Source: a virus
Reading direction: 5' to 3' (one strand)
DNA length: 23,555 nucleotides
IMG/VR virus record: IMGVR_UViG_3300042691_018419
Location: 1 to 23,555 of that record
The notes under the pieces are model-generated. The model searched no databases, was not told the DNA's origin, and saw only the letters and a program-made list of their open reading frames with translations. Numbering within the stretch: the first letter of the stretch is position 1; each line of letters begins with the position of its first letter. The translations under genes were made by a program, and so were the position numbers. Positions 4,115-19,648 of this stretch are shown here, piece after piece.

Positions 4115-4141
4115 TGTAAATTCGTTAAGAATTGTTACACA

Positions 4142-4170: not shown

Positions 4171-4180
4171 GCACCCCTTT
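4151..4180 (-). terminator. intrinsic terminator of the glycan operon
   Basis: AAAGGGGTG (4172-4180 read on the minus strand) and CACCCCTTT (4158-4166) form a 9-bp stem with a 5-base loop, followed by TATTTTT. It lies about 35 bp after the last glycosyltransferase gene and shares bases with the hli promoter. Confidence 0.85.
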
Positions 4181-4214
4181 GTTCGGATATCATAACATTT
4201 TTAAGTATAAATGC

Positions 4215-5012: not shown

Positions 5013-5758
5013 TATTCAGAAAGAACGCTTTCTATAATTTGTTTAAATACTTTGGTTTTTCCAACAAGAGGATCATCTAATCCTCTCCAATTTGAATGCC
5101 AGTTAGTTGCTGCGCGATAGTGTAAAAACTTTCCATCCAAATGGAGTTCCATATTATACCCACCAGCATCTTTCTGTAAATCAATATCATTATAATGAGT
5201 TGGATACTGAACATCAGTTTCCTTCATTTTGATTCCAGTTTTTTTGAAATACCAGTAGGTCATACCACCAACATCTGTCATATGACCTTCAACAATACCA
5301 TCAGAAAAGTCAATATTCTTATCTTCAATCTTAGGCATATTAAAGAACATAATACCATTCCACATATAGGTAACGTGCCCTCTTACCTGCGGAAGACCAG
5401 CAATAATAGCATCTTCCATATACTCAACAATATTAAACTCATCAATAAGAAACATATCAGAGTCTAGGAAGAATACAACATCTTCATTATGATTCTTACG
5501 AATAATATTATTATAAGTCCACTGAACAGTATCTGCACATGCTTGTGCAGGATTCATAGCAGATGCCCTCGGAGGTTTTTTATAATACTTCAACCCATTT
5601 TCAAAACAAACAGACTGAAATTCAGATTCAGTAGATTCAATAATCGAATCATCTACAATATGAAACTGATATTCATTCTTCAAAAACTTTTTAAAAAGTC
5701 TTTGTTGAAGTTCAACAAAATCAGGTCGGTTAACAACAGAGGTAAAAATATGAATCAT
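5012..5758 (-). CDS. putative GT-A fold glycosyltransferase
   Basis: This 248-residue protein starts at the ATG overlapping the epimerase stop (ATGA, 5755-5758). It begins with a Rossmann-like strand (Ile-His-Ile-Phe-Thr-Ser-Val-Val) and carries Phe-Phe-Leu-Asp-Ser-Asp-Met-Phe with a DxD motif at 99-101, as expected for a metal-dependent sugar-nucleotide transferase. An acidic/histidine region around His186-Tyr-Asn-Asp may complete the site. No signal peptide or membrane span is present. The family is not certain. Its place between an epimerase and a GT25 enzyme supports a role in the same glycan. Confidence 0.65.
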   Translation of the reverse strand: MIHIFTSVVNRPDFVELQQRLFKKFLKNEYQFHIVDDSIIESTESEFQSVCFENGLKYYKKPPRASAMNPAQACADTVQWTYNNIIRKNHNEDVVFFLDSDMFLIDEFNIVEYMEDAIIAGLPQVRGHVTYMWNGIMFFNMPKIEDKNIDFSDGIVEGHMTDVGGMTYWYFKKTGIKMKETDVQYPTHYNDIDLQKDAGGYNMELHLDGKFLHYRAATNWHSNWRGLDDPLVGKTKVFKQIIESVLSE

Positions 5759-6654
5759 AGTTGTGCAGAAAGCCAATCTTCAAGTTTCATTGACGGTTCC
5801 CAACCAAAAGTCTTACGAAGTTTTTGATTGTTTGCAAGACTCACTCTCGCTTCACCAGGACGAGGGGCAATATTTAATGTTTCATGATCAAACATTCTTG
5901 CAATCTGATTGATCGAATAGTTGTTTCCAGTTCCAACATTATATACCTGTCCAAATGCTTCTGGATCTGGGTTTGAAATTGCTGCCATAATATTTGCCTT
6001 CACAACATCACCAACGTAAGTAAAGTCACGACGTTGATTTCCATCACCAACGATTGTTAGAGGTTCTCCTGCTGCCCTCTGACGCATAAAAATACCAATC
6101 ACGGGAGCATACTGTCCACGCAGAGGTTGACGCTCACCATAAACGTTGAAATAACGGAAGCACACAGTTTGGAGACCAAACAAATCCGTGTACATCTTAC
6201 ACAGTTTCTCACCATTTACCTTAGAAACTGAATATGGATTCAGACAATCATCAGGTTGCGTTTCAATATTCGGAGTTTGATTCAGTCCATATCCAGAAGA
6301 TGTGGAAGAATACATCACACGCTTTACGCCAGCTTCACGAGCACATTGAAGAACTGTCACAGTACCAACGGAGTTAATACTGACTGCTTCAATTGGGTTT
6401 TCGATAGCAGGTTGAATCCGTGCCTCTGCTGCAATATGAAACACATAATCTACTCCATCATAGAGTGGACGTGTGTTTTCATAGTCACGGATATCGTACT
6501 TATAGTTTTGTGCCTTATCATTCCAATAAAATTGATCGTGGGCATCAGAATACTCGTTATCAATCACAACAACCTCGTGACCCATTTCAAGTAAACGGTC
6601 TACAAGGTTTGAACCAATAAATCCAGCACCACCAGTAACTAGTGATTTAGTCAT
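5755..6654 (-). CDS. NAD-dependent nucleotide-sugar epimerase/dehydratase (extended SDR)
   Basis: The 299-residue protein is an extended short-chain dehydrogenase. The NAD-binding motif GGAGFIG is at residues 8-14, the Ser/Thr-rich catalytic loop is at 116-120, and the Tyr141-x3-Lys145 pair is present. Later motifs (RYFNVYG, QRRDFTYVGD, YNVGTG) are those of UDP-glucose 4-epimerase-like enzymes. The likely reaction is conversion of a UDP-hexose, such as UDP-glucose to UDP-galactose or the N-acetyl forms, supplying donors for the neighbouring transferases. It overlaps both neighbours by four bases. Substrate specificity cannot be settled here; a UDP-glucuronate epimerase or decarboxylase is an alternative. 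Confidence 0.88.
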   Translation of the reverse strand: MTKSLVTGGAGFIGSNLVDRLLEMGHEVVVIDNEYSDAHDQFYWNDKAQNYKYDIRDYENTRPLYDGVDYVFHIAAEARIQPAIENPIEAVSINSVGTVTVLQCAREAGVKRVMYSSTSSGYGLNQTPNIETQPDDCLNPYSVSKVNGEKLCKMYTDLFGLQTVCFRYFNVYGERQPLRGQYAPVIGIFMRQRAAGEPLTIVGDGNQRRDFTYVGDVVKANIMAAISNPDPEAFGQVYNVGTGNNYSINQIARMFDHETLNIAPRPGEARVSLANNQKLRKTFGWEPSMKLEDWLSAQL

Positions 6655-7295
6655 ACAACTCTCTCAGGTAAAAAGTAATTCTTATTATAATTAAAGCACT
6701 CCTCAGTAGGATAGCTTGTCAAAGGATTCACAGTACCGTGATATCCACTTGTTTGATAGAAGAATGGATCATCAAATGCGTAAACATTGAACCAACGCTG
6801 TATCTCAGCAAATCCAATATCTTGATAATCTTCAATGATATATCCAGCATGATGACATACCCTCTGGCACATTCTAACATATTCATCGGTTAGATACAAG
6901 ATAGAATGTCCACCAAGCATATTATATGTCCGATACAGATCATCCTTGATATGTTCGTATTGTACATAAGGTCCAGAATGCCCATTCATTCTACCCCAGG
7001 ATGAAATACCAAGATAAACTGCATCAGCATCATCGGGAACTTCAATCTCAGGGCGAAAGTTTTTGATCATACAATCATCTTCAAACAAAACGAATGGAGG
7101 ATCAATTTCTTGCAACCCTTTAAAATGAGCAGCAGAGCATCCAGCAACAGGGCAATCTGGGCGAGGAATACCCTCAACACGAATGATAGTCTTGAACCCA
7201 CACTCTTTGAGAATTTTTTGCATATTCTCATTTTTTTCAGTGTGCTGTTCAAGATTCATATAAACAGCAGGAATTTCTCTAAGATCTAAGTTCAT
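6651..7295 (-). CDS. short GT25-like glycosyltransferase
   Basis: The 214-residue protein resembles GT25 enzymes: Val-Tyr-Met-Asn-Leu near residue 11, Cys-Ser-Ala-Ala-His-Phe-Lys-Gly at 53-60 (matching the Ser-His helix of GT25), and Phe-Glu-Asp-Asp at 71-74. It is shorter than usual and lacks the long C-terminal part. It overlaps the GT6 gene by 17 bases and the epimerase by four. It probably adds one sugar to the operon's glycan. Assignment is from motif order only. Confidence 0.7.
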   Translation of the reverse strand: MNLDLREIPAVYMNLEQHTEKNENMQKILKECGFKTIIRVEGIPRPDCPVAGCSAAHFKGLQEIDPPFVLFEDDCMIKNFRPEIEVPDDADAVYLGISSWGRMNGHSGPYVQYEHIKDDLYRTYNMLGGHSILYLTDEYVRMCQRVCHHAGYIIEDYQDIGFAEIQRWFNVYAFDDPFFYQTSGYHGTVNPLTSYPTEECFNYNKNYFLPERVV

Positions 7296-7974
7296 TATGA
7301 TTCTTTTTTAAAGCAATGATTTTGGGTTCATAAGGATACTCAGGATTATTCATCTGTTCCTCAGCAAAACAATATGAAGGAGTCAAACTAAGGGTAGGAG
7401 GATTATCGATCAGGTATCGATTCATTTGAGATTCATCGTGCCAAAGAGCAATAACTCCATTTTCAAGATCTCGATTCACGCGGTCAGCAATAACCTCCGC
7501 CATTTCAAGGAATCTCTTGGTTGATCCACCATTGAAACCACCAGCATAATAATTCTCACCTTCTTCACCATATGGAACATATGCTAGAGAATTAGGATTT
7601 CTATCATAAGTTCTTTCTTCTTTCTTATGAAAAGATTGATAAGGATGCATTGTGGCAACAAGATCACTTAGAACCTCATCACCAACCTTATCAACCAAAC
7701 CCATATCAACATCAAAGTAGAAACAATAATCAAACTGAGAAATAAAATCTTTTTCCCTAATAAAGTAATTATACCTTTTCAAAGTTGGCATCGGCCAAGG
7801 TTCATGATCAATCTGACAAACTCTTACATTATCAGATGTTTCTACTTCATGATCGGTAAAAAGTAGACAATTAATTTCATGCCCATTAAGAAAATTCTCC
7901 TCGATATTATCAAGAAGTCTTTCAACAAACTGAATGTATTTGTTTGTTGCAATAGTCAGAATACAAATTTTCAT
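7279..7974 (-). CDS. GT6-family glycosyltransferase (ABO blood-group type)
   Basis: The 231-residue protein clearly matches family GT6, which includes the human ABO A/B transferases and alpha-1,3-galactosyltransferase. Visible landmarks are Phe-Asp-Val-Asp-Met (DxD at 88-90), His-Pro-Tyr at 110-112, Ala-Tyr-Val-Pro at 131-134, Tyr-Tyr-Ala-Gly-Gly-Phe-x-Gly-Gly at 142-150 (the donor-selecting region) and Leu-Trp-His-Asp-Glu-Ser-x-x-Asn-Arg-Tyr-Leu at 177-188. It lacks the membrane anchor of animal enzymes. GT6 enzymes add Gal or GalNAc in alpha-1,3 linkage, often to a fucosylated galactose. Most bacterial members have NxN instead of DxD, whereas this phage copy keeps DxD. The operon also makes GDP-fucose and a fucosyltransferase that could prepare the acceptor. 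Confidence 0.9.
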   Translation of the reverse strand: MKICILTIATNKYIQFVERLLDNIEENFLNGHEINCLLFTDHEVETSDNVRVCQIDHEPWPMPTLKRYNYFIREKDFISQFDYCFYFDVDMGLVDKVGDEVLSDLVATMHPYQSFHKKEERTYDRNPNSLAYVPYGEEGENYYAGGFNGGSTKRFLEMAEVIADRVNRDLENGVIALWHDESQMNRYLIDNPPTLSLTPSYCFAEEQMNNPEYPYEPKIIALKKNHNELRS

Positions 7975-8591
7975 TTATTTTTAATGTAAAGTGCATCACC
8001 CCACTTATACCAAGTTTCTGGCCAATGAGTTTCGACTCTTTCAAATCCATACTCACTTAAAAACTCATCCAATTCTTCAACCATAGGAATTCCTTCATAC
8101 ATTTCCCCACGATTGACTTCACAATACACATAATCAATTTGTTGAAGAGTTTTTTGTCCTCCTCTAAAAACTTCTAGTTCATATCCCTGAACATCAATAT
8201 TGATGAAATTTGATTCTCCAATATCAAATGTATCAAGAGTATCAACTTCAACTTCTTCAGTTCCATCAAAAGACACATCTGGATGATGTTCCAGATGTTC
8301 TTTTGGTTTTAAAATAGAACTACTCTGTGCTTCATTGCTACTTAGATACATCGTAGCAGTTCCTTTCTTACTACCAAGGGCAACCTGATATCCCTGAATG
8401 TCAGCGTTTACATTCTGAAGGCGTTGAGAAAGAATGTCAAAGTTTTCAGAAAGTGGTTCAAAAACAGTTATCTTCTGAATACCATTATCAACATACTCTT
8501 GAATTTCTTCACCATAGTGAGCACCAATATGAACAACACCTTTAATGTTCATATTATATTTTCTTCGCAGGTTGGTAAAACTTATTAGCAT
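7971..8591 (-). CDS. FkbM-family methyltransferase
   Basis: The 206-residue protein has the SAM-binding motif Val-Val-His-Ile-Gly-Ala-His-Tyr-Gly-Glu at 19-28, an acidic second strand (Val-Phe-Glu-Pro-Leu, 43-47) and the FkbM signature Ile-Asn-Ile-Asp-Val-Gln-Gly-Tyr-Glu-Leu-Glu-Val. FkbM enzymes O-methylate sugars and polyketides; here a sugar hydroxyl of the surface glycan is likely. Two starts are possible, Met1 at 8591 directly after the previous stop codon, or Met14, close to the conserved domain. Methylation can block host receptors or degrading enzymes; that role is inference. Confidence 0.85.
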   Translation of the reverse strand: MLISFTNLRRKYNMNIKGVVHIGAHYGEEIQEYVDNGIQKITVFEPLSENFDILSQRLQNVNADIQGYQVALGSKKGTATMYLSSNEAQSSSILKPKEHLEHHPDVSFDGTEEVEVDTLDTFDIGESNFINIDVQGYELEVFRGGQKTLQQIDYVYCEVNRGEMYEGIPMVEELDEFLSEYGFERVETHWPETWYKWGDALYIKNK

Positions 8592-8592
8592 T

Positions 8593-9474
8593 TTATTTTG
8601 AAATTGTTTTAGCGATTTGATTCAGGGTTCCATCCCAAGTCAAGTACTTATCATAGACCATTCTACCATATTCAAGATAATTTTCATACTCACCAGTTTC
8701 CAAAAGATGATCAACAATACTTGGAATAGTATCTATACTATTTTCATCGATAAGGATTGCTGCCTTATTCCAATCAATCTCATCAGCAAAAGGTAACCAA
8801 AATACATCACTAATATAGATGGGAATAGCATCCATCTGCATAGTTTCATACATTCTGAATGAAGTTGGTCCATACCCTCTTGGGGCAAGTCCAAATACAG
8901 AATCATATATAATATCTCTAAATGCCTCAGAAAGACCATTAGAAAGATTTACGGCAAACTTATACCCATCTATTCCTTGCAACTTATCACACATTACTTT
9001 ACGAATGGGGTGAGTATCATTCCTTCCTGCAAACCCAACTTTGTTCATTCTTGTTTCTTTTGGAGAACCAGGATGAGGATCTGAAAGAAGTGGAATGGGA
9101 ATATACTCTTGCGTTGGTGCTTTTGGTGACTTAGGAGAATTTGAAGAGGCAAAAACTTTACAGTTATCAATGGAAACTAGTGTTCCATCATCATACTGAA
9201 CAACGGTAAAAAACTTCTCACCAGGATACTTACTTGGCAATTCATTGACCCAGTTTTGAATCTCTGCAATCTTTTCAGTATCATTTCCCCAATTACTACT
9301 ACAATGATATTGAGTCCATTGAATAGGAATATAGATGTAATCACTATCAATATCCATTGTAGTGAAGTAAGAAAATGCTCTCTCCTCAATTAAAGGGTTA
9401 AGACCTTGATGAGGAGGATATCTAAATGTATTTTTAGGCAACCACTGTTGTGGAGTATCAACAATTCTGATCAT
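8593..9474 (-). CDS. exostosin-like glycosyltransferase (GT47-type)
   Basis: The 293-residue protein resembles exostosin-family transferases. The C-terminal half has Phe-Gly-Leu-Ala-Pro-Arg-Gly-Tyr-Gly-Pro-Thr-Ser-Phe-Arg-Met-Tyr-Glu followed by Ala-Ile-Pro-Ile-Tyr-Ile-Ser-Asp, the nucleotide-sugar site with the conserved Glu. A central Gly-Phe-Ala-Gly-Arg precedes it, as in the family. These enzymes transfer glucuronate, GlcNAc, galactose or arabinose; the donor is unknown here. It overlaps the GT2 gene by four bases, and the FkbM start follows two bases after its stop. Confidence 0.78.
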   Translation of the reverse strand: MIRIVDTPQQWLPKNTFRYPPHQGLNPLIEERAFSYFTTMDIDSDYIYIPIQWTQYHCSSNWGNDTEKIAEIQNWVNELPSKYPGEKFFTVVQYDDGTLVSIDNCKVFASSNSPKSPKAPTQEYIPIPLLSDPHPGSPKETRMNKVGFAGRNDTHPIRKVMCDKLQGIDGYKFAVNLSNGLSEAFRDIIYDSVFGLAPRGYGPTSFRMYETMQMDAIPIYISDVFWLPFADEIDWNKAAILIDENSIDTIPSIVDHLLETGEYENYLEYGRMVYDKYLTWDGTLNQIAKTISK

Positions 9475-10217
9475 AAGTCTAAGATTTTTGTTTTATAAAG
9501 ATCTGCAGAAAGAGAAGAGTTGGAACCACAAGCATTCCAATAACTAGCACTTCTCAATCTATGATTATAATAAAATTCAGGAACAACTTTAAATTCACCA
9601 CCATTCATTATCCAGAAGTAAGAAAATGCTAAGACATCTGCGTGGAGTAGTTCTGTTTGTTTATTTTCAAAAGGTTCTTCAATGAGTTTGAGATAAGCAT
9701 TACGATTGAATACATAATTACCAGTATTTAAAAACCAATCAAACCACTTGGTTCTTTTGATAATTCCATCTTTTGCTTCTTCAATACCCACAATATCATA
9801 TTTAAATTTGTAGTGTGCTTCATCAGTGTATCCGTTTTCTGCATTATGAAGTAGAAGTTTTTCCGGACAATAACAAATATTTTCTATTGGATCTACAATA
9901 CCCTGAATGACACTAAGAGTGTTTTCAGTTGGATGATTGTCACTATCAAGAAGGTAAATCCAGTCACAACTAGAATTCTTAACAGCAGTATATTTGTTTC
10001 TGAATCCGCCAAGATTTACTTCGTTTCTGAATAATTTAATTTTACTAGTATTAAGATCATCAACCACTTGATTAAGTTTTTGCCATTCCTCTTCTGAGGA
10101 ACAATCATCATTAACAACGATTTCTTTTACAAAATTATTGTCCAACGCATAATTAACTGCTTCTTTAAAATACTGAGAAGTATTATAAAATGGTATTGCT
10201 AATGTAATTTCTTTCAT
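9471..10217 (-). CDS. GT2-family glycosyltransferase
   Basis: The 248-residue protein begins with the GT2 signature: Leu-Ala-Ile-Pro-Phe-Tyr-Asn, then Glu-Ile-Val-Val-Asn-Asp-Asp-Cys-Ser-Ser near 32-41 and Leu-Leu-Asp-Ser-Asp-Asn at 89-94 (DxD). These bind the nucleotide sugar in an inverting GT-A fold. A C-terminal His-x-Arg (around residues 219-221) may help catalysis. It has no membrane span and would act in the cytoplasm on a lipid-linked or protein acceptor. Its ATG overlaps the next gene's start by four bases on one side, and the upstream gene's stop overlaps its own start on the other (TAATG). Confidence 0.85.
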   Translation of the reverse strand: MKEITLAIPFYNTSQYFKEAVNYALDNNFVKEIVVNDDCSSEEEWQKLNQVVDDLNTSKIKLFRNEVNLGGFRNKYTAVKNSSCDWIYLLDSDNHPTENTLSVIQGIVDPIENICYCPEKLLLHNAENGYTDEAHYKFKYDIVGIEEAKDGIIKRTKWFDWFLNTGNYVFNRNAYLKLIEEPFENKQTELLHADVLAFSYFWIMNGGEFKVVPEFYYNHRLRSASYWNACGSNSSLSADLYKTKILDL

Positions 10218-10966
10218 TATTTTAGTAAGTAATTGACAAACTCTTTGGAGGAAATAACCATATTATCATACTGGTCCATTTTTGTAACATCTGTATATCT
10301 ATTAAATGGAATCCCAAGCACTCTACAAATATCAATATATTGATCACAATATTGATGTGGATTTGGCGGGTATATTTCAATAATATTAGTGTTCTTTGAA
10401 GCAAATAATGAAAATACCATTCCACCACTTTGAGGTGCTATTACACACTTTGCATTATTAAAAATTTGAATTTTTTCAGAAACTGTATAATCTTCAAAGT
10501 AGATTGCTTTAAATCCTAGTTCTTGAAGGTCTTCTACTAACTCATTCTCATTCAAGATATGCCTCCGTTTAATATTATTATCTCTTCGGTTACCTTCACA
10601 CAAATGAGACTTGCTTCGACAAATGTAAATATTTTCATACTCACTAGTGTCAAATCCACTGACCCTAGAAAGAAAAAGATCTCTTAAAAATGTATATGTT
10701 GTTGGATCAACATGAAATTGACCACTATTGTTTGAAATATTAACTGGTTTAATGGAAGGAATTAAAATAGACTCACCGCCATTGGGGACAATATTAATAA
10801 GATCATTTAAAATTTCAAATGTTTCTTTTTGATATGCAGTATAATCTTCTGCATCGAAGCAGACATTAACTTTTGTAGATAGATCAATTTGCTTTAAAGA
10901 TCCTACCATATAGACAAACCAATGGTAGATAAAATCTTTACCAGCTTCCTCAATTTTATATTTCAT
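10217..10966 (-). CDS. GT61-like glycosyltransferase (DUF563 C-terminal type)
   Basis: The 249-residue protein has the features of the GT61/DUF563 group: Ile-Tyr-Ile-Cys-Arg-Ser-Lys-Ser, Arg-Arg-His-Ile-Leu-Asn-Glu-Asn-Glu-Leu, a Ser-Glu-Lys-Ile-Gln-Ile-Phe segment and Ile-Ala-Pro-Gln-Ser-Gly-Gly-Met in the last third. It is shorter than the second GT61-like protein in this operon. The start at 10966 is chosen because its ATG overlaps the previous stop (ATGA); a start six codons upstream is possible. The donor sugar is unknown. Confidence 0.75.
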   Translation of the reverse strand: MKYKIEEAGKDFIYHWFVYMVGSLKQIDLSTKVNVCFDAEDYTAYQKETFEILNDLINIVPNGGESILIPSIKPVNISNNSGQFHVDPTTYTFLRDLFLSRVSGFDTSEYENIYICRSKSHLCEGNRRDNNIKRRHILNENELVEDLQELGFKAIYFEDYTVSEKIQIFNNAKCVIAPQSGGMVFSLFASKNTNIIEIYPPNPHQYCDQYIDICRVLGIPFNRYTDVTKMDQYDNMVISSKEFVNYLLK

Positions 10967-11727
10967 TTCCAAATAAAATTCCAATTTTCTAGTTTAGGAC
11001 ATTTTAACATATTTAAAAATTTATTATTACATTCAGGTCCATCACATCTGCGGTGTGGTTCATTTCTAGCATATGCATGAAGATTGATAGTCACGTCCTT
11101 CATTCTGTTAATACTTTGCATATGATAAACAAACAACGCTATCGAATTTTCAACTAAATGAATCTCATTAGCATTCTCAATAATTTTTGAAATATTCAAA
11201 AAATTATCAGTTAACCGATGTAAATTAATTATTTCACCACTTACATATTTTCTATCTATCATTTCTTCTTCCATCTCACATACCACAGAATAATTTGATG
11301 GGAGATCAAGAGATTGGTATAAATTATCCTCAATGTCTAAGTCTCTTTCATAATTAAACTTAGATATTCTTAGATTTGGATCTAAACCTACTTCTGTATA
11401 AAAAGAAGATGCATTATCAGTAGAAACGAAAGATTCTATCCCAAACTTATTAATCTTATTGAAATACTTACCATTGTTACCTGGATTAGAATATAATTCC
11501 CCAACTCTAACATCAATCACATCACATTCACATCCAGGATCAATAACACCCTCAACTGGAATAATTTTAGAATTATCCCTAAACATATGAGTCGTGAAAG
11601 GAACAACGACAGGAGTGTCATGAACTAGATAGACTTCATCATAAAATTCCGAAAGATATCGAATCATTCCATTTGTTGATATCCAATCTCCAAACGCATC
11701 ATAAACTACAAATACCAAAGTTTTCAT
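10963..11727 (-). CDS. unknown protein, possibly a GT-B type transferase
   Basis: This 254-residue protein begins Met-Lys-Thr-Leu-Val-Phe-Val-Val-Tyr-Asp-Ala-Phe-Gly-Asp-Trp-Ile, recalling the N-terminal strand and Gly-Asp loop of GT9/heptosyltransferase-like proteins. A later part (Asn-Leu-His-Arg-Leu-Thr-Asp-Asn-Phe-Leu, then His-Leu-Val-Glu-Asn-Ser) resembles the donor-binding half of GT-B enzymes, where an acidic residue contacts the sugar. The similarity is weak and the protein is short for a complete GT-B fold. Its tight overlaps with both neighbours show it belongs to the operon. Function is a guess. Confidence 0.6.
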   Translation of the reverse strand: MKTLVFVVYDAFGDWISTNGMIRYLSEFYDEVYLVHDTPVVVPFTTHMFRDNSKIIPVEGVIDPGCECDVIDVRVGELYSNPGNNGKYFNKINKFGIESFVSTDNASSFYTEVGLDPNLRISKFNYERDLDIEDNLYQSLDLPSNYSVVCEMEEEMIDRKYVSGEIINLHRLTDNFLNISKIIENANEIHLVENSIALFVYHMQSINRMKDVTINLHAYARNEPHRRCDGPECNNKFLNMLKCPKLENWNFIWK

Positions 11728-12164
11728 AAAAGTGCAGGATAATCAGTGCATATTCCAAAGGGTTTTTCATATCCTGGCATAAAAGTTTCAATATCTTCTT
11801 TATTAATTAAAGGAATAATAGTAGTATGATCTATCTTTTGAGTTAGATCGTGCAACCATATTATACCAGTTGATGTATAAACAAAACTATCAGAACTATG
11901 GCAAAAAGAATGATATGCCCAACACTCCTTTGCTGCTTCAAGATTTTTACAGTGTAACCATAAGTAGTGTCTACGTTTATCCAACCAATTATGGTCTACT
12001 TTATATTGTGGAAAATCATGCCCCAACCAAAGTTCACCATTGATTGAACGAACATCAATCTCAACATGAAATCCGCTCCCAATTGCACAATCAATATAAC
12101 TTGGACGATTTTCTTTGTCAGGAACAGCACCACGAATGTTTCCTCTATGAGAAATAATAATCAC
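11724..12164 (-). CDS. compact glycerophosphodiesterase-like (GDPD) protein
   Basis: The 146-residue protein carries the core of the GDPD/PLC-like barrel: His6-Arg7-Gly, Glu18-Asn19-Arg-Pro-Ser, Glu35-Ile-Asp37 and Gly-His49-Asp50, which form the metal site and catalytic histidine pair in known enzymes. It is far shorter than the usual 240-300 residues, so it may be a trimmed barrel. Members hydrolyse phosphodiesters such as glycerophosphocholine. In this operon it might act on a phosphodiester-linked glycan substituent or a nucleotide-activated precursor. It overlaps both neighbours by four bases, suggesting co-function with the HAD and aldolase genes. Confidence 0.75.
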   Translation of the reverse strand: MIIISHRGNIRGAVPDKENRPSYIDCAIGSGFHVEIDVRSINGELWLGHDFPQYKVDHNWLDKRRHYLWLHCKNLEAAKECWAYHSFCHSSDSFVYTSTGIIWLHDLTQKIDHTTIIPLINKEDIETFMPGYEKPFGICTDYPALL

Positions 12165-12472
12165 AGTTCTTCAATCCTCAAAGATTTATCTTCAATAAAC
12201 AAATCATAAAAAGGTTTATTAACTAAAAGTTCGTGGTACTTTGCCCCCCACTCATTCAACTGCCTAGTAGTAAGTTCAGTCCAGTCTTTTTGTTTTCTAC
12301 TTCCTCTAGCAGTCCAATAAACAATAGTATTCCCTTCATCATAAAGTTTATTAATTTTCTCTATGTTTTCTAGAATAGGTTTTGCTTTTGTATAATCATG
12401 AGTTGTTCCAAAGTCAACAGATGTTTCTCTATGACAAATGGTCTCATCAATGTCAACATAAATCACTTTCAT
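12161..12472 (-). CDS. small HAD-family phosphatase
   Basis: The 103-residue protein has all the catalytic motifs of the HAD superfamily: Asp7-Ile-Asp9-Glu-Thr near the start, Thr54-Ala-Arg-Gly, Lys86 in Asn-Lys-Pro and Glu94-Asp95 near the end. It lacks a cap domain, like small phosphatases of capsule and LPS loci. It probably dephosphorylates a sugar phosphate or another small phosphate ester made by the adjacent aldolase. Four-base overlaps on both sides tie it to the GDPD and aldolase genes. Confidence 0.85.
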   Translation of the reverse strand: MKVIYVDIDETICHRETSVDFGTTHDYTKAKPILENIEKINKLYDEGNTIVYWTARGSRKQKDWTELTTRQLNEWGAKYHELLVNKPFYDLFIEDKSLRIEEL

Positions 12473-13140
12473 TGATACATATTTCTCCGATAATTTTCAT
12501 TGGGACAAGTATCAACATCGGCAACTTCTTGTTCTGTTAAGAACTTAACTCCACCTAAAAGTTTTGCGCCAATAAAAATATCAGCAGACTTTTCACACAT
12601 TAGAGTAGAAGCTGCACAATCTTTTTTAGATGCAGATGCTGTGATTATACCATGGTTTTGAAGTAGAATCAACTTTGGAAAGAATCCTTCATGATCTACA
12701 AATCTAGATACATGCTTCTCCACTAACTTCAATATTGATTCTCCTGGTGGTGCATAAGGGACAACACAAGACTTTGTACCATTCCTCACGATCTGATCGG
12801 GGAACCATCTATGCTCAGCAAAATCATAAAGAACCGATGGCTCAGAACACAAAATTTTAGTTGTATGTGGTGGATGCGTGTGAGCGATAAAATTTACTTC
12901 CGGAAAAGTCTTCATAATCCAAGCATGAAAAGAAGTTTCGATACTTGGTTTTTTATGAAGAAGTTCTATCTGTGCTCCATTAGTATTGCATAAGGTCAAA
13001 TCTTCTTCTGATAATGTATGAAGACTTGTTCCACTTGCCTTAATCAAAAAAGTATTTTCATCTACCCTTACTGAGACATTACCCTCACCACAAATAGTGT
13101 AGTCACTGATTTCTCTTGCTAGTTCTAGTATTTCAGACAT
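12469..13140 (-). CDS. class II aldolase/epimerase-family protein
   Basis: The 223-residue protein matches the class II aldolase/adducin family (fuculose-1-phosphate aldolase, ribulose-5-phosphate 4-epimerase). Gly20-Asn21 and Ser36-Gly-Thr form the phosphate site, Glu68 is in the catalytic position, and His87, His89 and His163 are the zinc ligands (Ala-His-Thr-His-Pro, Gln-Asn-His-Gly). It would cleave or form a short sugar phosphate. Next to a HAD phosphatase, a GDPD-like enzyme and a nucleotidyltransferase it may help make a small activated building block for the glycan. It overlaps the GT61 gene by eight bases. The substrate is unknown. Confidence 0.87.
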   Translation of the reverse strand: MSEILELAREISDYTICGEGNVSVRVDENTFLIKASGTSLHTLSEEDLTLCNTNGAQIELLHKKPSIETSFHAWIMKTFPEVNFIAHTHPPHTTKILCSEPSVLYDFAEHRWFPDQIVRNGTKSCVVPYAPPGESILKLVEKHVSRFVDHEGFFPKLILLQNHGIITASASKKDCAASTLMCEKSADIFIGAKLLGGVKFLTEQEVADVDTCPNENYRRNMYQ

Positions 13141-14236
13141 CTTTAAGAAATGTTGCTAACGTATTTAGATTTACCCTCCAAGGCGAGTTCAGACCCCCAG
13201 AAATAGAAAGAGACCCATCGCTTTCAACGGTCTCCTCAATCTTCTCAACAAACTCAGTATCATTAAAATGATAAAGTTGAGTATGACTCATAGAATACTC
13301 AAATCGAGTGTTGATATCAAAGAATAAAGGACTATTAATTGAAATGACTTTTGTTTCTGGTGGTGAAAAAATTACGTTACACATACCACCACCGATAGGA
13401 CCAGCAACATATTTTGCAGAGTTAAACAATCCGATCTTCTCTTTCATCGTCATATTTTCACAGAAGATCTCCTCATATCCATAAGACTTAAAGAGTTCTA
13501 CAACTTCATCTTCATTTATACAACGGCGGCGTTCGGTGTAGTTTGTACCGATATTTTCAAAGTTATTATGCAACCAAGTTCTACGTGAAATATAAATCTT
13601 TTCTGGTCCTTGATAATCACCCTTCATACGATTAATAATATCAAATACTCCTGCATGTGGTGGCGTATTTGAAAGTCCATTATGAGTCAATGAAGATCCA
13701 ACTACAACAGTATTGTATAAGGTATCTGGGTTAAGAAACACAACATCTTTCTTTCTTATTCCCAAGAGTTCAAGACATTCCCAAACAAAAGGATATAAAT
13801 CATCTTTGCCTTCTGGTGGACTTACTAAAAGTTTAAGATCTGGATGAATCTCTTTCTCATTGAAGTATGAATAGAGGTAGGGTAGAGTATCATAGATGAA
13901 GTGATAATAGTTCGCCATATTATACACAAAGTAGAATACAGGAACCGAACAAAAGTTCTTAAAGTGAAATGGATTATCCACTTCATACGCCATCGTTTCT
14001 TCATAAACTGTACCACGCCCAAGAGACATAAACATCTCTTTTGTTGGAAGAATTAATTTATGAGTTTGATGAGAATAAATTAGTGGTTGTGGATAGTGCT
14101 TCGATAATCCAGTAAATTGGCAGGAAAAGAAGTATGCAACTTCAATATCCCTGCCATTGTCATCATTTTCTTTTATAAGTCTTGTTCTTCCAGAGTTCCA
14201 GTATTCAATTGGTAAAATAGTCTTTTGTATACTCAT
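13133..14236 (-). CDS. GT61-like glycosyltransferase
   Basis: The 367-residue protein has the full GT61/DUF563 pattern: Tyr-Tyr-His-Phe-Ile-Tyr-Asp-Thr-Leu-Pro in the N-terminal half, Ile-Tyr-Ile-Ser-Arg-Arg, then Glu-Asp-Glu-Val-Val-Glu-Leu-Phe and Gly-Pro-Ile-Gly-Gly-Gly-Met-Cys-Asn in the C-terminal half. GT61 enzymes transfer xylose, arabinose or GlcNAc in plants and animals, and unknown sugars in bacteria. The ATG at 14234-14236 is preferred over a TTG five codons upstream; it overlaps the nucleotidyltransferase gene by 32 bases in another frame, the longest overlap in the operon. Confidence 0.82.
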   Translation of the reverse strand: MSIQKTILPIEYWNSGRTRLIKENDDNGRDIEVAYFFSCQFTGLSKHYPQPLIYSHQTHKLILPTKEMFMSLGRGTVYEETMAYEVDNPFHFKNFCSVPVFYFVYNMANYYHFIYDTLPYLYSYFNEKEIHPDLKLLVSPPEGKDDLYPFVWECLELLGIRKKDVVFLNPDTLYNTVVVGSSLTHNGLSNTPPHAGVFDIINRMKGDYQGPEKIYISRRTWLHNNFENIGTNYTERRRCINEDEVVELFKSYGYEEIFCENMTMKEKIGLFNSAKYVAGPIGGGMCNVIFSPPETKVISINSPLFFDINTRFEYSMSHTQLYHFNDTEFVEKIEETVESDGSLSISGGLNSPWRVNLNTLATFLKDV

Positions 14237-15767
14237 AAGGATGCCAATCAACTTTATTGAAAAATCTTTGCCAATATTCGTAAGTTTTTAAATCGTTAGG
14301 TGTCCCCCAACAAATATAATTATCAATCTCAAAATTCTTGACTTTATATCCCAAATGAATTGCTTCGTTTAACATACTATCAACATAAAATTCACCATTT
14401 GTCCTAGTGTTATTCTTGTAAAGAGATTCAAGAGAACGATAAAAAATTTCTTTTGTTCTGAAAAACATAGTTCCAGTGATAGCATATTCATTTACAGGAT
14501 TTTCTCCCATAAACTTTTTCACATCAACACGAGTTACATTACCATCACCATCACAGTTCACCCAAGAATATGCATTTGGTTGTAAGTGACTTGTATAGTT
14601 GTTACGATAAGTCCATACAATTATATCATTATTTTCATCATTCACCAAATCCAAAAACTTATCTGCATCATAAAAAACTCCATTATCGCAGGCAGAGATA
14701 AGAATAGAGTTATCTGGATCACATTGATTTACAATCTTTTCGGTTGTACATGCCTGCCCTTCAAGAACTTCATCAATCCATACAATATTTTCTCCTGGTG
14801 CTTGATACCCTTTCAAACAAGCATAGATAATCTCGTCAGTTTTGGGGAGGCATCTAACTGCCTGCTCAACCATATTTTTACCATTAACTTTGATGAATGG
14901 TTTTGGTTCAGTATATCCTTCCTTAGAAAATCTACTACCAGCACCCGCCATTGGAAGAGCAAGAGTGCAGTTTTCAAGTCGTACTTCTTTCTGACCTTCT
15001 AGTGCTTTGCGATAATAATTAGACCAACTAGTATAAACATCTAGATCAAAAGGAGTTCCCCACTGCAACATGTAGGGGATTCCATATACAGTATTATATA
15101 ACCCATCCCTTACCATTAAATTATAAATTAAACTTACATAATATTCACCATTAATATTGATATCTTCATCCATCAACTGCTTAAAATATTTCTTAACATA
15201 ACTACCCTTTCTAAAATAGTAATTACCAGCAGAGGCAAACTCAGACATCTTATCATCTGTAAATGGTTGCTTCTCCCTAACTTCTAATATTTTTTCATCT
15301 GGTCCACTATCATCAGTACGACAGAAAGCGTAGTTATCACTACCTAACATATGGGGATGAAATCCAGTGTAACAAATTACACACCCATCACACTCTACAG
15401 TATTCAAGTATTCCCTAAAATGCCTATAATCCCAATAAATTGAAAAATCACAATAATTGACAATAACCTCTTCATCATCATCAATTAAATGATCAAACTC
15501 TGATACAGAATATACTGGACCTTTTTTATGGCAAGGAATAGTGACTATTTCCTTCTTATCTACGAGTTTATCTAATACTTCAATAATGTCAGTTTCTTTC
15601 TTATGTTTATCATTAATAATAAAAACAAAGTCACTATCTTCTGGATATAGGTTGACTATATGCTCTATGACTTTCTTTCCATCTACTTCAATAAGATATT
15701 TTGGAATATCATACCCAGCAGCAGCAAACCTACTGCTCATACCAGACATTGGAATAACGACTTTCAT
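14205..15767 (-). CDS. tandem two-domain sugar nucleotidyltransferase
   Basis: The 520-residue protein contains two complete nucleotidyltransferase domains in a row. Domain 1 (about 1-245) has Pro-Met-Ser-Gly-Met-Ser-Ser-Arg-Phe at 6-14 and Pro-Lys-Tyr-Leu-Ile; domain 2 (about 267-515) has Pro-Met-Ala-Gly-Ala-Gly-Ser-Arg-Phe at 272-280 and Pro-Lys-Pro-Phe-Ile. Both keep an acidic metal residue (Asp107, Asp361) and a Trp-Gly-Thr-Pro motif near the end. Such enzymes join a sugar phosphate to an NTP; most have one domain. Domain 1 differs more from the consensus loop and may have another substrate. A 20-bp gap, the largest in the operon, lies before it and carries a late-motif match. Confidence 0.87.
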   Translation of the reverse strand: MKVVIPMSGMSSRFAAAGYDIPKYLIEVDGKKVIEHIVNLYPEDSDFVFIINDKHKKETDIIEVLDKLVDKKEIVTIPCHKKGPVYSVSEFDHLIDDDEEVIVNYCDFSIYWDYRHFREYLNTVECDGCVICYTGFHPHMLGSDNYAFCRTDDSGPDEKILEVREKQPFTDDKMSEFASAGNYYFRKGSYVKKYFKQLMDEDININGEYYVSLIYNLMVRDGLYNTVYGIPYMLQWGTPFDLDVYTSWSNYYRKALEGQKEVRLENCTLALPMAGAGSRFSKEGYTEPKPFIKVNGKNMVEQAVRCLPKTDEIIYACLKGYQAPGENIVWIDEVLEGQACTTEKIVNQCDPDNSILISACDNGVFYDADKFLDLVNDENNDIIVWTYRNNYTSHLQPNAYSWVNCDGDGNVTRVDVKKFMGENPVNEYAITGTMFFRTKEIFYRSLESLYKNNTRTNGEFYVDSMLNEAIHLGYKVKNFEIDNYICWGTPNDLKTYEYWQRFFNKVDWHPYEYTKDYFTN

Positions 15768-15784
15768 ACCTAAACTTTTTTTAG

Positions 15785-15792
15785 TATTTATT
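15785..15792 (-). promoter_or_regulatory. possible late promoter inside the glycan operon
   Basis: AATAAATA on the minus strand fits the T4-type late motif NATAAATA. It lies 18 bp before the ATG of the tandem nucleotidyltransferase gene, in the only real gap of the operon, and overlaps the stop of the preceding gene. No -35 box is visible, as expected for late promoters. A chance match is possible in this AT-rich DNA. Confidence 0.35.
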
Positions 15793-16489
15793 GGTGCCTG
15801 GAAGGATCGATAGTATATGGTTTATCAAAATATTCTACTCTTAGAACCTTATCATATACATTCTGAGTCACAGATGGTTCAAAATTACAAGGATATCTAC
15901 CTTTAAACAACTCCAACATCTCCATACAAAAATTATAAGTTTCAGTGTATGCAAGCATAGAATTTCTATTACCATATACAATAGCATCAGAAACCCAAGG
16001 AACATCCTTACCATATCCAAGAGGTTCACGAACAACAATAGGTGCAGTATAATTGCACCAAGGAATTACAGAAAATATTTTGTAAGAATCTGTTATATTA
16101 ATTTCTGGTAGAGATGAAGTTATAATATCAGAACGATATTTAATATAAGCATCATATTCAAACCCATTAGCATCAGCATACTTAGTCGCCATATCAAATG
16201 CATTTCTATCATTAAAAAACATTGACATTGGATTATATGGTTTTGGTTCTGAAAGATTTGTGTTGATGTTTATAAAAATATCTTCAAATCTTTTTGGAAA
16301 TGTGTATGGATTGATATATAAACCCTTCAACCAAGTAGATAAATTTGTCCTTGCAATGTCATAATATTCAGAATCAATATCATTGATAGAGCAAAATAAA
16401 TCAACCTCATACTTAGAATTTTGTAGTAGAGGGAGAAGACAAGATTGATAACACTTTAATCTTCCAGAAATTAATAATGCAACCTTCAT
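15788..16489 (-). CDS. unknown protein of the glycan operon
   Basis: The 233-residue protein starts Met-Lys-Val-Ala-Leu-Leu-Ile-Ser-Gly-Arg-Leu, a Rossmann-like first strand with a Gly-Arg loop. It has Tyr-Asp-Ala-Tyr-Ile-Lys-Tyr-Arg-Ser-Asp in the middle (an acidic position that could bind a sugar nucleotide) and Val-Ser-Asp-Ala-Ile further on. This pattern resembles uncharacterised glycosyltransferase-like proteins of LPS loci; no family is certain. The ATG at 16487-16489 overlaps the fucosyltransferase stop (ATGA), which decides the start. It has no membrane span. Confidence 0.65.
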   Translation of the reverse strand: MKVALLISGRLKCYQSCLLPLLQNSKYEVDLFCSINDIDSEYYDIARTNLSTWLKGLYINPYTFPKRFEDIFININTNLSEPKPYNPMSMFFNDRNAFDMATKYADANGFEYDAYIKYRSDIITSSLPEINITDSYKIFSVIPWCNYTAPIVVREPLGYGKDVPWVSDAIVYGNRNSMLAYTETYNFCMEMLELFKGRYPCNFEPSVTQNVYDKVLRVEYFDKPYTIDPSRHQ

Positions 16490-17286
16490 ATTACAATCCA
16501 CTCAGGAAGATATAGGTCACTCAAATTCTTTGATGCATCTGCTCCACCAAACCAAACACTTGGAGAAACTGTCTTTTTACTATTTGCCAACCAAGCACCC
16601 CACCAAGAGAATGATGAATTAGCAATAATATGATACTGGCACAAAGACATCAAACACAAATCGACACCTGTACTATTACCTTCTGCAAAAATAAAACGAT
16701 CACCTTGGAATAATTCTTGCTCTTTACACCAATCAATACCATCAGAAAAAATCATCACGGGAATATCAGTTGGCATATGTGTCAGACCTTCTACATAATA
16801 TTCCAATGACTGAACAGGATGATGAGGATATTTTAGATAATCACCTCTACGAAGATGAATTGCAATAACTTCCGTATCTCCAAAGTTTGATTTAAATGCT
16901 TCCTCGGTTGGTTCCCGAATTTCATCAGCAAATGTAAATGCCTCACGTATCTGCTTTTCAATATGTTTGAAATATTTTTCAGTCTGAAAATAACCATATA
17001 GACTAATGTTATCTGGACAGTTATTCCAAAGGTTTTCATCTAACTCAAAACCAGATTCCATAATCTTAGGAAAATTAGTAACATACTTTGGTGCTTCCGG
17101 AATCTTGAAGCACTCAAACATTGTAATATCTGAGTTTACACAATTAATATCTCTGGTTGCTACGACTGCTCTTGGTGGTAAACAATACTCATATCCATGT
17201 CTTTGAGCAAGACCACGCAGAGCAGTATATTGAAACATCTGGTTTCCAAGTCTACCCAGATTTCCTAGATCATCATTTGCAAGCAT
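16486..17286 (-). CDS. GT11-family alpha-1,2-fucosyltransferase
   Basis: This 266-residue protein is a clear GT11 member. It has Leu-Gly-Asn-Gln-Met-Phe-Gln-Tyr at 13-20, the GDP-fucose binding motif His144-Leu-Arg-Arg-Gly-Asp-Tyr (144-150) and Ser-Ser-Phe-Ser-Trp-Trp-Gly-Ala-Trp near 224-232. GT11 enzymes transfer L-fucose in alpha-1,2 linkage, usually to galactose, as in H antigen synthesis. The gene follows gmd and fcl, which make its donor. The start at 17286 overlaps the fcl end by 14 bases; a longer frame upstream would lie inside fcl and is not needed. Motif I reads Gly-Arg-Leu-Gly-Asn, a small deviation from Gly-Gly-Leu-Gly-Asn. Confidence 0.92.
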   Translation of the reverse strand: MLANDDLGNLGRLGNQMFQYTALRGLAQRHGYEYCLPPRAVVATRDINCVNSDITMFECFKIPEAPKYVTNFPKIMESGFELDENLWNNCPDNISLYGYFQTEKYFKHIEKQIREAFTFADEIREPTEEAFKSNFGDTEVIAIHLRRGDYLKYPHHPVQSLEYYVEGLTHMPTDIPVMIFSDGIDWCKEQELFQGDRFIFAEGNSTGVDLCLMSLCQYHIIANSSFSWWGAWLANSKKTVSPSVWFGGADASKNLSDLYLPEWIVI

Positions 17287-18208
17287 TTTCTTTATACCAT
17301 TGATAAGTTGATTCAATACCTTCACGAAGAGAAATTTTTGATTCCCATCCAAGTGCTTTGATTCTATCCACGTTCATCACCTTGCGGGGAGTTCCATTTG
17401 GTTTGGTAAAATCCCAGTTGATATCACGATCATAACCAACAACATCAGCAATAATATTTGCAAGTTCCCAAATTCTAACATCCTCACCCGTGCCAACATT
17501 AATATGTCCTGCATCTTCATACTTTTGCATACAAACGTAACACGCCTCAGCAAGATCATCAACATGCAAAAACTCGCGCATTGCAGAACCATCACCCCAG
17601 AGTTTTACTTCCCAATACTTACTATGATCCAAAGCAGCGTGGAACTTTGCAATCATTGCAGGAAGAACGTGTGAGGTTTCCAGATCAAAGTTATCATTCG
17701 GACCATAAAGATTCGTAGGCATCAGAGAGATGGCATTGAACCCATACTGTTGCCGATATGCTTGACACATCATAATGCCAGCGATCTTTGCAATCGCATA
17801 GGCATCATTCGTTGGTTCCAAAGGACCAGTCATCAACTGATCTTCTGTGATTGGTTGAGTTGCAAACTTAGGATAGATGCAAGAAGAACCAAGGAACAGT
17901 AGTTTCTTCACACCAAAGTTATAGGACTGCTGTATAAGATTGGTTTGAATCTGTAAGTTTTCAGTCAGAAACTCTGCTTTATGATTATTGTTTGCCATAA
18001 TGCCACCAACTTTTGCAGCAGCAACAAAAACATATTCAGGTTCTTCCGAACAGAAGTACCTTTCCGTTTCATCTTGATTGGTAAAATCTACATCATCACG
18101 AGTTCCCTTGATGATATTAGTATATCCTTTACTTTCAAGATTTCTTACGATTGCAGATCCAACCATTCCATTGGCACCAGCAACTAATACTCTAGAATCA
18201 CTGTCCAT
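17273..18208 (-). CDS. fcl: GDP-L-fucose synthase
   Basis: The 311-residue enzyme converts GDP-4-keto-6-deoxymannose to GDP-L-fucose by 3,5-epimerisation and NADPH reduction. Gly11-Ala-Asn-Gly-Met-Val-Gly is the cofactor motif, Ser108-Ser109-Cys110-Ile-Tyr-Pro the active-site loop, and Tyr137-x3-Lys141 the catalytic pair, all close to positions in E. coli WcaG. The ATG at 18206-18208 overlaps the gmd end by 11 bases; the open frame seven codons upstream lies inside gmd. It is the second step of GDP-fucose synthesis, supplying the GT11 enzyme encoded next. Confidence 0.96.
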
Positions 18209-19199
18209 AAATGCACATATCCTCAACAAGTTGTTTAAAAGAAATCTTAGGTTCCCAACCTAGTTTTTCCTTTGCCTTTGTGGCATCACCTAATAAAGTC
18301 TCTACTTCAGCAGGTCGAAAATATTTAGGGTTGACTCGAATAACCGTTTTACCAGTATTCTTATCAATACCAACTTCATCTAGTCCTTCACCTTCCCATA
18401 CAATTTTCATACCAAAATATGGTGCTGCTTCTTCTACAAACTCACGCACAGAGTATTGAACACCTGTGGCGATTACATAGTCATCTGGTTCATCTTGTTG
18501 AAGCATCAACCACATTGCTTCTACAAAGTCTTTTGCGTGTCCCCAATCACGTTTTGCATTTAGATTACCAAGTTCCAAAACATCTTGTAATCCAACAGAA
18601 ATTTTAGAGAGTGCCTGTGTGATCTTACGAGTTACAAAAGTTTCACCACGTCTTGGAGATTCGTGATTGAATAGGATACCTGTACAAGCATACATTCCAT
18701 ATGCTTCACGATAGTTCTTAGTAATCCAATAACCGTAGATCTTTGCTACCCCATAAGGAGAACGGGGATAAAAAGGAGTAGTTTCACGTTGAGGAGTTTC
18801 TTGTACAAGACCATAAAGTTCGCTTGTAGACGCTTGATAAATACGGACACGATCTTCCATCCCCAAAAGACGCACCGCTTCAAGAATACGAAGAGTTCCC
18901 ACACCATCGACATCAGCAGTGTATTCAGGCATTTCAAAGGATACTTTGACATGACTCTGAGCACCAAGATTATAAATTTCATCGGGTTTTACTTTTTGAA
19001 TAATTCTTACAAGATTGGTAGAATCAGTAAGGTCACCGTAATGGAGATTAATAGAATCATAGATGTGGTCAATACGATGAGTATTAATAAGGGATGCTCG
19101 TCGGACAATGCCATGAACTTGATAACCTTTTTCAAGTAATAATTCTGCGAGATACGACCCATCTTGACCTGTAATGCCAGTAATTAATGCAACCTTCAT
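18198..19199 (-). CDS. gmd: GDP-mannose 4,6-dehydratase
   Basis: The 333-residue enzyme removes water from GDP-mannose to give GDP-4-keto-6-deoxymannose, the first step toward GDP-fucose. It has Gly8-Ile-Thr-Gly-Gln-Asp-Gly (NADP binding), Arg-Arg-Ala-Ser near 33-36, the catalytic Thr126-Ser127-Glu128, and Tyr149-x3-Lys153, in the order and spacing of the family. It is the first gene of the 15 kb glycan operon; its ATG lies about 20 bp after the -10 box of the promoter at 19220-19248. GDP-mannose must come from the host. GDP-rhamnose or perosamine routes also use this intermediate, but fcl directly downstream points to fucose. Confidence 0.97.
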
Positions 19200-19219
19200 A
19201 AAGGAAAATACTTTTTATC

Positions 19220-19248
19220 ATTATACTAAAAAAGGAGAGTTTATGCAA
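19220..19248 (-). promoter_or_regulatory. promoter of the 15 kb glycan operon
   Basis: TTGCAT (19243-19248), a 17-bp spacer and TATAAT (19220-19225) on the minus strand. The -35 box sits in the loop of the preceding terminator hairpin and the spacer contains its T-run, the same design as the hli promoter at 4142-4170. Transcription would start about 15 bases before the gmd ATG, so the leader is very short. Confidence 0.75.
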
Positions 19249-19254
19249 CTCTCC
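19228..19254 (-). terminator. intrinsic terminator upstream of gmd
   Basis: GGAGAGTT (19247-19254) and AACTCTCC (19234-19241), read on the minus strand, form an 8-bp stem with a 5-base loop followed by six T residues (19228-19233). It ends the transcript of the small genes to the right, 12 bases after a possible stop codon at 19266. Confidence 0.88.
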
Positions 19255-19265
19255 CACTAGGTCTT

Positions 19266-19620: not shown

Positions 19621-19648
19621 AAGGGGGATTCATCACCGACCAGTGCTG

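Follow-up and report, generated by a model that had tools for sequence, protein, structure and literature searches.

A cyanophage operon with GDP-fucose, GT11 and GT6 genes and its possible part in building an A/B-antigen-like glycan

Introduction

The subject of this study is an operon which combines genes for GDP-fucose synthesis with those of a GT11 fucosyltransferase and a GT6 (ABO-family) transferase, and which is carried on the 23.6 kb virus record IMGVR_UViG_3300042691_018419 (23,555 nt, analysed over its whole length and referred to below as the window). Among described systems, Escherichia coli O86 uses a GT11 fucosyltransferase and the GT6 enzyme WbnI to form a blood-group-B O-antigen (PMC4202792, PMC4982269). 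The likeness, drawn by description and not by sequence, is that GT11 and GT6 serve one polysaccharide pathway, whereas O86 is bacterial with a known product and the window is phage DNA with a predicted one. BoGT6a of Bacteroides ovatus is a GT6 which makes an A-type product from 2'-fucosyllactose, and it is the closest solved structure to the window GT6.

As far as cyanophages are concerned the parts are not new, since a lipopolysaccharide (LPS) cluster in which both GT11 and GT6 are annotated is known from the Prochlorococcus phage P-SSM2. GT6 genes in two cyanophages were mentioned by Pham et al. 2014 (PMC3961637), fucose genes including one for an alpha-1,2-fucosyltransferase have been described in cyanophage S-SCSM1 (PMC9602691), and PHROGs has families for both GT11 and GT6. 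In the portions of the literature open to our search, with most subscription journals outside it, no paper was found which proposes an A/B-like product from GT11 and GT6 acting together in a phage. What is new here is a measured link between GT11 and GT6 together with a specific proposed product: phage-made GDP-fucose, with GT11 and then GT6 building an A/B-like branch on a host envelope glycan and so masking the infected cell, a reading which we consider evenly poised between right and wrong.

The operon and its relation to the P-SSM2 cluster

By DNA the window matches phages of Synechococcus and Prochlorococcus, with psbA among the matches. Its closest record is S-SRM01, from Serangoon Reservoir and described as freshwater, so that the marine origin assumed in the first-pass annotation is not borne out, though the GT6 protein is closest to that of P-SSM2 (80% identity) among the named phages listed. 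On the minus strand, from 19199 to 4215, 19 open reading frames (ORFs) form a tightly packed operon, in which, with the longest ORFs taken, 16 of the 18 junctions overlap and no gap exceeds 20 nt. The genes on which the argument turns are these:

18198..19199, minus strand: GDP-mannose 4,6-dehydratase (GMD), first gene of the operon; PF16363 3.8e-156, NCBIfam gmd 571 bits (cut-off 415)
17273..18229, minus strand: GDP-L-fucose synthase; NCBIfam NF047922 1.2e-137, 458.5 bits, below the cut-off of 500
16486..17352, minus strand: GT11 fucosyltransferase; PF01531 6.8e-29, 101.5 bits (cut-off 23.9), phrog_2644 1.2e-100
7279..7974, minus strand: GT6 (ABO-family) glycosyltransferase with DVD, YYAGG and WHDES; PF03414 4.6e-41
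6651..7295, minus strand: divergent GT25-like glycosyltransferase, constant neighbour of GT6; phrog_24091 8.7e-82
5755..6654, minus strand: GalE/WbpP-like nucleotide-sugar 4-epimerase; Pfam Epimerase 1e-57, UDP-glucose 4-epimerase 4zrm 1.9e-50, WbpP 9.5e-41
5012..5776, minus strand: glycosyltransferase-like, weak GT2 match; PF10111 0.014, below cut-off; present in 54 of the 80 GT6 loci described below
4215..5012, minus strand: GT25 glycosyltransferase, last gene of the operon; PF01755 1.1e-11, 45.4 bits (cut-off 24)

The five genes which had been named from the letters alone (GMD, GDP-fucose synthase, GT11, GT6 and epimerase) are all confirmed on the minus strand by Pfam, NCBIfam and PDB comparisons, and chance matches are excluded for them because the E-values are so low. 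Misidentification of the genes is likewise ruled out, profiles, PDB matches and, in the case of GT6, the structure model all being in agreement. The operon itself, first placed at 5755-19199, is real; its true end is at 4215, and with 19 genes it takes in the GT25 gene and the weak GT2-like gene, both outside the earlier span.

The operon very likely yields GDP-fucose and the GT11 protein is very likely a fucosyltransferase, with an alpha-1,2 link to galactose as its likely product. The protein contains HLRRGDY, which we take to be a GT11 motif. Its longest ORF begins at TTG, the phrog_2644 match covers it only from residue 23 on, and the true start is probably near 17286. A search of NCBIfam with GT11 gave no match, and the search for PDB relatives by sequence gave nothing beyond weak nuclease matches.

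In content the window is a P-SSM2-type cyanophage LPS cluster, with GMD, epimerases and several glycosyltransferase families followed by hli (by eye), ferredoxin and psbA, and with GDP-fucose synthesis, GT11 and GT6 all inside one gene cluster. The P-SSM2 cluster likewise starts with GMD and then a nucleotide-sugar epimerase gene, and it ends with GT6, the GT25-like gene (60% identical), the epimerase and GT25, after which hli and ferredoxin follow. The two differ between GT11 and GT6, where P-SSM2 has two hypothetical genes and the window 11 genes (two GT61, GT47, aldolase-like, nucleotidyltransferase-like and others), and between the epimerase and GT25, where P-SSM2, unlike the window, has no counterpart of the gene at 5012-5776.

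Co-occurrence of GT11 and GT6 in phages

GT6 genes were collected from IMG/VR, the best 80 of 159 candidates being used, and GT11 is present in 78 of these 80 contigs; in the other two GT6 lies at base 87 and 1177 of the stretch, i.e. within 1.2 kb of the contig end. In a phage collection with 71 records matching GT6 and 102 matching GT11 (60 matches of each listed), 11 of the 12 GT6 records searched in full contain GT11. The sole exception is MT838506, a fecal fragment of 7.7 kb. In the GT6 tree its GT6 groups with that of Gemmiger formicilis on very short branches; filed as a phage, the fragment is probably bacterial DNA, and it was counted as a miss yet not treated as phage.

Two neutral samples were made up of records found via the ferredoxin neighbour, with either the window's protein or that of ACG-2014f, and only loci extending for at least some 7.8 kb towards the cluster were used (45 of 80 and 29 of 80, respectively). 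GT6 occurs in 10/45 and 6/29 of them and GT11 in 35/45 and 20/29. When the samples are pooled, GT11 is found in all 16 records with GT6 as against 39 of the 58 without (Fisher p 0.0044, or 0.011 once four equal-scoring records, taken as near-copies, are merged), though close kinship among many of the contigs means that these p-values do not come from independent draws. The 80 GT6 contigs include eight of the 16 neutral GT6 records. A comparison of 78/80 with 25/35 (p 1e-4) mixes two ways of sampling and is not relied on.

GT6 is thus hardly ever found without GT11, and GT11 is often found without GT6. The survey of joint occurrence suggested in the first-pass annotation therefore came out on the positive side, and the idea that the two genes are rarely together is rejected by the 78 of 80 contigs and the 16 of 16 neutral records. 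This pattern fits a GT6 which needs a fucosylated acceptor, but also a frequent gene beside a rarer one, the statistics by themselves being modest.

Gene adjacency and enzyme lineages

The phage loci that were fetched hold 111 GT6 ORFs (five contigs, fetched under two anchors, are counted twice); GT11 lies in the same stretch for 93, upstream on the same strand for 90 and within 60 nt for 25; of the remaining 18, 15 have GT11 elsewhere in the record and three do not (L043, L047 and L090, the last being MT838506). Counted by 90% clusters, GT11 is in the stretch for 45 of 48 and within 60 nt for 13. The annotated GT11 and GT6 genes overlap in S-CAM9, DSL-LC02, DSL-LC03 and B23, and by match coordinates the two abut in S-8S53, S-8S55, S-8S56 and S-PRM1.

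In the best 80 of 226 bacterial GT6 loci, GT11 stands within 10 kb in 46 and within 200 nt in 28, in 24 of these on the same strand; in a clade consisting mostly of Dependentiae and Chlamydiae, 18 of 21 have no GT11 nearby. Among the 24 same-strand loci are three in which, as assembled, one ORF carries GT6 and GT11 domains together, all on contigs of bacterial metagenome-assembled genomes (MAGs):

L217, 9650-11593: fusion ORF, GT6 domain first
L225, 10001-11632: fusion ORF, GT6 domain first
L247, 888-2573: fusion ORF, GT11 domain first

The sources are Hoeflea, Planctomycetota and Alphaproteobacteria MAGs. From their domain content these proteins are possible one-protein H-to-A/B synthases, and their opposite domain orders suggest separate fusions. 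A joint GT11-GT6 pathway is supported by the direct adjacency in several phages together with these fusions.

In a GT6 tree of 129 rows (two short sequences of 131 were omitted, and the bootstrap had not settled), phage GT6 fall into clade A (33 rows, including the window), clade B (12 rows), a huge-phage pair and the fecal fragment, both cyanophage clades being well supported. Changes of label number four, of which the starred branches force three, the fecal fragment included. GT11 accompanies all three phage kinds of GT6 (clade A, clade B and the huge-phage pair). The GT11s found with clade-A GT6 are largely apart from those found without GT6 in a quick tree with long branches, a grouping which can also reflect phage descent.

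Identity to the window GT6 is about 44% for the GT6 of the huge-phage record L085 (LR745206, 635 kb) and about 40% for that of L086 (LR756502, 642 kb), and both records contain GT11. In the second cyanophage GT6 clade (L087, L088, L089, L091, L092, L093, L143 and L164) DAD is found and the donor motif A-G-G is replaced by Q-G-C, and the donor sugar of these enzymes may differ.

Properties of the GT6 enzyme

The GT6 protein scores 141 bits with PF03414 (cut-off 25) over residues 4-231, the catalytic domain; with NCBIfam NF041524 it reaches 1e-56, yet its 192 bits are below the cut-off of 250. Its PDB matches by sequence include BoGT6a (1.4e-38) and human ABO (about 1e-36). The structure model (predicted local distance difference test, pLDDT, 95.2) has the GT-A fold of BoGT6a and of the human enzymes GTA and GTB, its best structural match being BoGT6a 4ayj (Z 33.8, root-mean-square deviation 1.5, 223 residues, 37% identity), with ABO (Z about 31) and alpha-1,3-galactosyltransferase (Z about 30) further down. 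The catalytic-site motifs are D88-V-D90 (DXD) and W178-H-D-E181 (WHDE), and in GTA numbering DVD, His233, Trp300, His301, Asp302, Glu303 and Lys346 are all retained.

With GTA and GTB the window GT6 has the family, the fold, DVD, His233, Trp300 and Glu303 in common, but identity in the catalytic domain is about 31%, residues 235, 236 and 326 differ, and the window protein has no membrane-type stretch. With BoGT6a it shares the donor-site residues Ala144 (GTA 266) and Gly146 (GTA 268), but BoGT6a has NAN in place of DVD and Gly-Phe in place of Tyr-Gln at 235/236. According to a review, Met266 keeps GalNAc out of GTB (PMC4202792), and an alanine at this position is for that reason compatible with GalNAc; the ABO row of our residue alignment is a chimeric solved chain (Ser235, Met266, Gly268), the GTA and GTB residues being taken from the same review. 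The window GT6 is likely an alpha-Gal or alpha-GalNAc transferase, and the chances that it depends on fucose are about even.

Joint or separate action of GT11 and GT6

The strongest alternative is that GT11 and GT6 act on different sugars of one glycan, the operon being a cassette of interchangeable transferases in which both are frequent parts; we regard this as a tentative but real possibility. Several observations lean its way and weigh against successive action on one branch. GTA positions 235/236 are Tyr/Gln in the window GT6, where ABO has Gly/Ser-Phe and BoGT6a Gly-Phe, and the small residue of GTA, GTB and BoGT6a at 235 is thus absent. In clade A (33 rows, that is, the window and 32 cluster representatives) position 235 is Tyr in 24, Gly in 5, Trp in 2, Ser in 1 and Cys in 1, and position 236 is Gln in 28 of the 33. 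In alpha-1,3-galactosyltransferase, which we take to use no fucose, a Trp presumably stands near position 235. Tyr235 is a warning that the acceptor of the phage GT6 may differ from 2'-fucosyllactose. The residue is weak evidence all the same: position 235 is Gly in 34 of 46 bacterial GT6 with GT11 near and in 26 of 34 rows without (33 bacterial ones and the fecal fragment), and since the two sets are alike there it was dropped as a marker of fucose dependence.

There are further points against successive action. GT11 often occurs where GT6 is absent (39 of 58 neutral records), and the two neutral samples taken singly give p 0.058 for the first and 0.082 for the second. Nine loci (L007, L020, L028, L030, L033, L037, L038, L063 and L064) each carry a pair of GT6 genes, from two distant clades, but a single GT11 match in the record. 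In the window, 11 genes separate GT11 from GT6; for 34 of 80 bacterial loci the stretch retrieved, in some cases short, contains no GT11; and a GT11 member which makes an alpha-1,3 link exists (PMC4202792).

GT6 is also tied more tightly to other genes. In the fetched stretches of the first neutral sample, with ORFs assigned to the best window protein, a procedure which favours window-like genes, the GT25-like gene at 6651-7295 occurs in 7 of 9 loci with GT6 and 1 of 36 without, the gene at 5012-5776 in 7/9 and 0/36, GT2 in 5/9 and 0/36, GT47 in 4/9 and 0/36, and the epimerase in 6/9 and 7/36. The corresponding figures for GT11 are 4/9 and 23/36, the low first value arising because the other five have GT11 outside the fetched stretch. 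Across the 80 GT6 loci the GT25-like gene is found in 77 and the epimerase in 75, while eleven other operon genes are found in only 3 to 36, as an interchangeable cassette would have it. From these counts and the neutral-sample ties, the most stable unit is GT6, the GT25-like gene, the epimerase and GT25; GT11 and the GDP-fucose genes lie upstream of it, and the genes in between are exchangeable.

Action on different sugars is at odds, on the other hand, with the neutral samples (16/16 vs 39/58), with GT11 and GT6 standing directly side by side in phages and with the bacterial fusions. The ABO/H-type pathway put forward in the first-pass annotation accordingly survives in part: co-occurrence, adjacency and fusions speak for it, the deviating residues 235/236 and the frequency of GT11 without GT6 speak against it, and the proposed cap is plausible but not established.

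Proposed pathway and location of the glycan

If GT11 and GT6 do act in succession, GMD and GDP-fucose synthase would convert host GDP-mannose into GDP-L-fucose, and cytoplasmic transferases would act on a glycan of the host envelope, lengthening what is most likely the outer part of the cyanobacterial LPS. The fucose would be added by GT11, probably in alpha-1,2 linkage to a residue of galactose type; GT6 would next add alpha-GalNAc (or alpha-Gal), giving an A/B-antigen-like branch, for which the epimerase would supply UDP-GalNAc or UDP-Gal. The altered surface could then mask the infected cell from competing phages. The epimerase scores below the cut-offs of the NCBIfam models shown, and one of its serines aligns with a serine of WbpP at a place which we take to be a putative substrate gatekeeper.

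A fuller version of this proposal, which we hold to be doubtful, is that cyanophages apparently gained GT6 more than once and combine it with GT11, that the surface of infected cyanobacteria thereby carries a true A/B-like cap in which alpha-GalNAc or alpha-Gal is linked to Fuc-alpha-1,2-Gal, and that a DVD metal-type GT6 whose acceptor pocket varies between phages would act as a switch of surface type.

The location of the glycan bears on a second alternative, in which the capsid or tail proteins of the virion are decorated instead of the host envelope. A Kyte-Doolittle scan found a membrane-type hydrophobic stretch in none of the 19 operon proteins, and among them, several being without assigned function, Pfam recognises no ligase, polymerase, flippase or lipid-carrier transferase, both of which would suit a virion target, though the lack of such stretches also fits the cytoplasmic transferases proposed above. 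The signals at the ends of the operon are as follows:

19220..19248, minus strand: candidate promoter, TTGCAT, 17 nt, TATAAT, 20 nt before the GMD start codon, read in the sequence
19233..19255, minus strand: terminator-like hairpin just upstream of the operon, 9 pairs and a T tail
4158..4180, minus strand: terminator-like hairpin just after the last operon gene, 9 pairs (5 G-C) and a T tail

From the packing and the end hairpins we infer a single operon transcript; terminator-like hairpins in 3400-20300 number 18 as against 8.1 expected from shuffles. The candidate promoter resembles those of the host sigma type, which are associated with early genes, and so argues mildly against a virion target; its -35 element matches 3/6 and it is below the promoter-scan threshold. 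The pattern TATAAATA, presumably of late promoters, occurs once in the window (22045) where 2.2 are expected by chance, another slight argument; near the operon no late-promoter pattern was found, TATAAATA being the one searched for. A small further weight comes from a review which proposes that such cyanophage clusters alter or diversify the host surface polysaccharide against rival phages (PMC7824862). Promoter type and precedent thus weakly favour the host envelope, and virion decoration appears unlikely.

A third explanation is that the operon supplies a host-like glycan which keeps the host surface intact while host expression is shut down. The families of the operon genes do stand together in bacterial genomes too, as this would have it, but the cluster is highly variable between phages; diversification fits better for that reason, and we rate the maintenance of a host-like surface as quite unlikely.

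Should the pair work as proposed, viruses of abundant aquatic photosynthesisers would carry and exchange blood-group-antigen chemistry and with it remodel the infected cell surface, and the earlier conjecture that rival phages are shut out by cyanophage LPS genes could be tested on a defined sugar. Natural GT6 enzymes which vary where the human A and B enzymes differ would be useful for enzymology.

Remaining genes and signals

The remaining operon genes are the following:

15788..16501, minus strand: protein rare in relatives, no Pfam match, weak phrog_13607, in 3 of the 80 GT6 loci
14205..15767, minus strand: two-part nucleotidyltransferase-like protein, PF12804 in two stretches, phrog_3980 6.6e-172 (a PHROG without function label)
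13133..14251, minus strand: GT61 glycosyltransferase, PF04577 9.5e-20
12469..13140, minus strand: class II aldolase-like enzyme, PF00596 4.2e-29, below the cut-offs of the NCBIfam models shown
12161..12472, minus strand: small HAD-type phosphatase-like protein, TIGR01689 2.6e-6 and PF25109 1.6e-4, both below cut-off
11724..12164, minus strand: glycerophosphodiester phosphodiesterase-like (by eye), no Pfam match, phrog_34507 6.5e-70 (a PHROG without function label)
10963..11727, minus strand: protein without family match, no Pfam above cut-off and no PHROG
10217..10984, minus strand: second GT61 glycosyltransferase, PF04577 2.7e-15
9471..10217, minus strand: GT2 glycosyltransferase, PF00535 3.1e-15
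8593..9474, minus strand: GT47 exostosin-like glycosyltransferase, PF03016 2.6e-23
7971..8591, minus strand: FkbM-type methyltransferase, PF05050 1.4e-21

The constant neighbour of GT6, ORF 6651-7295, gives no match in Pfam or NCBIfam. Its family aligns with the GT25 family of the operon (hhalign P 92, E 6.8e-7), and its model (pLDDT 88.1) resembles mimivirus R655 (6.8e-7) and human GT25 COLGALT1 (3.7e-6) at a template modelling score of about 0.5, on which it is read as a divergent GT25-like transferase.

Within the block 11724-15767 four genes (nucleotidyltransferase-like, GT61, aldolase-like and glycerophosphodiester phosphodiesterase-like) occur in 7 to 16 of the 80 GT6 loci and the HAD-like gene in 36, and the block may make an unusual sugar or polyol donor. 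The DSL-LC03 cluster holds a gene annotated as glycerophosphodiester phosphodiesterase, its likeness to 11724-12164 being one of annotation alone, and in S-SRM01 a SIS-domain gene stands beside the gene for its nucleoside diphosphate (NDP)-sugar synthase.

Outside the operon the window has three tRNA genes, and further ORFs which, by eye and from gene order in relatives, are labelled hli, ferredoxin, peroxiredoxin and PstS-like. A perfect sigma-70 consensus promoter at 4142-4170 overlaps the hairpin at the operon end and faces ORF 3920-4174, which is hli-like by eye. ORF 190-705, adjoining psbA, resembles by eye a LAGLIDADG homing endonuclease; psbA is uninterrupted in the window, and in S-SRM01 two psbA pieces flank an endonuclease gene.

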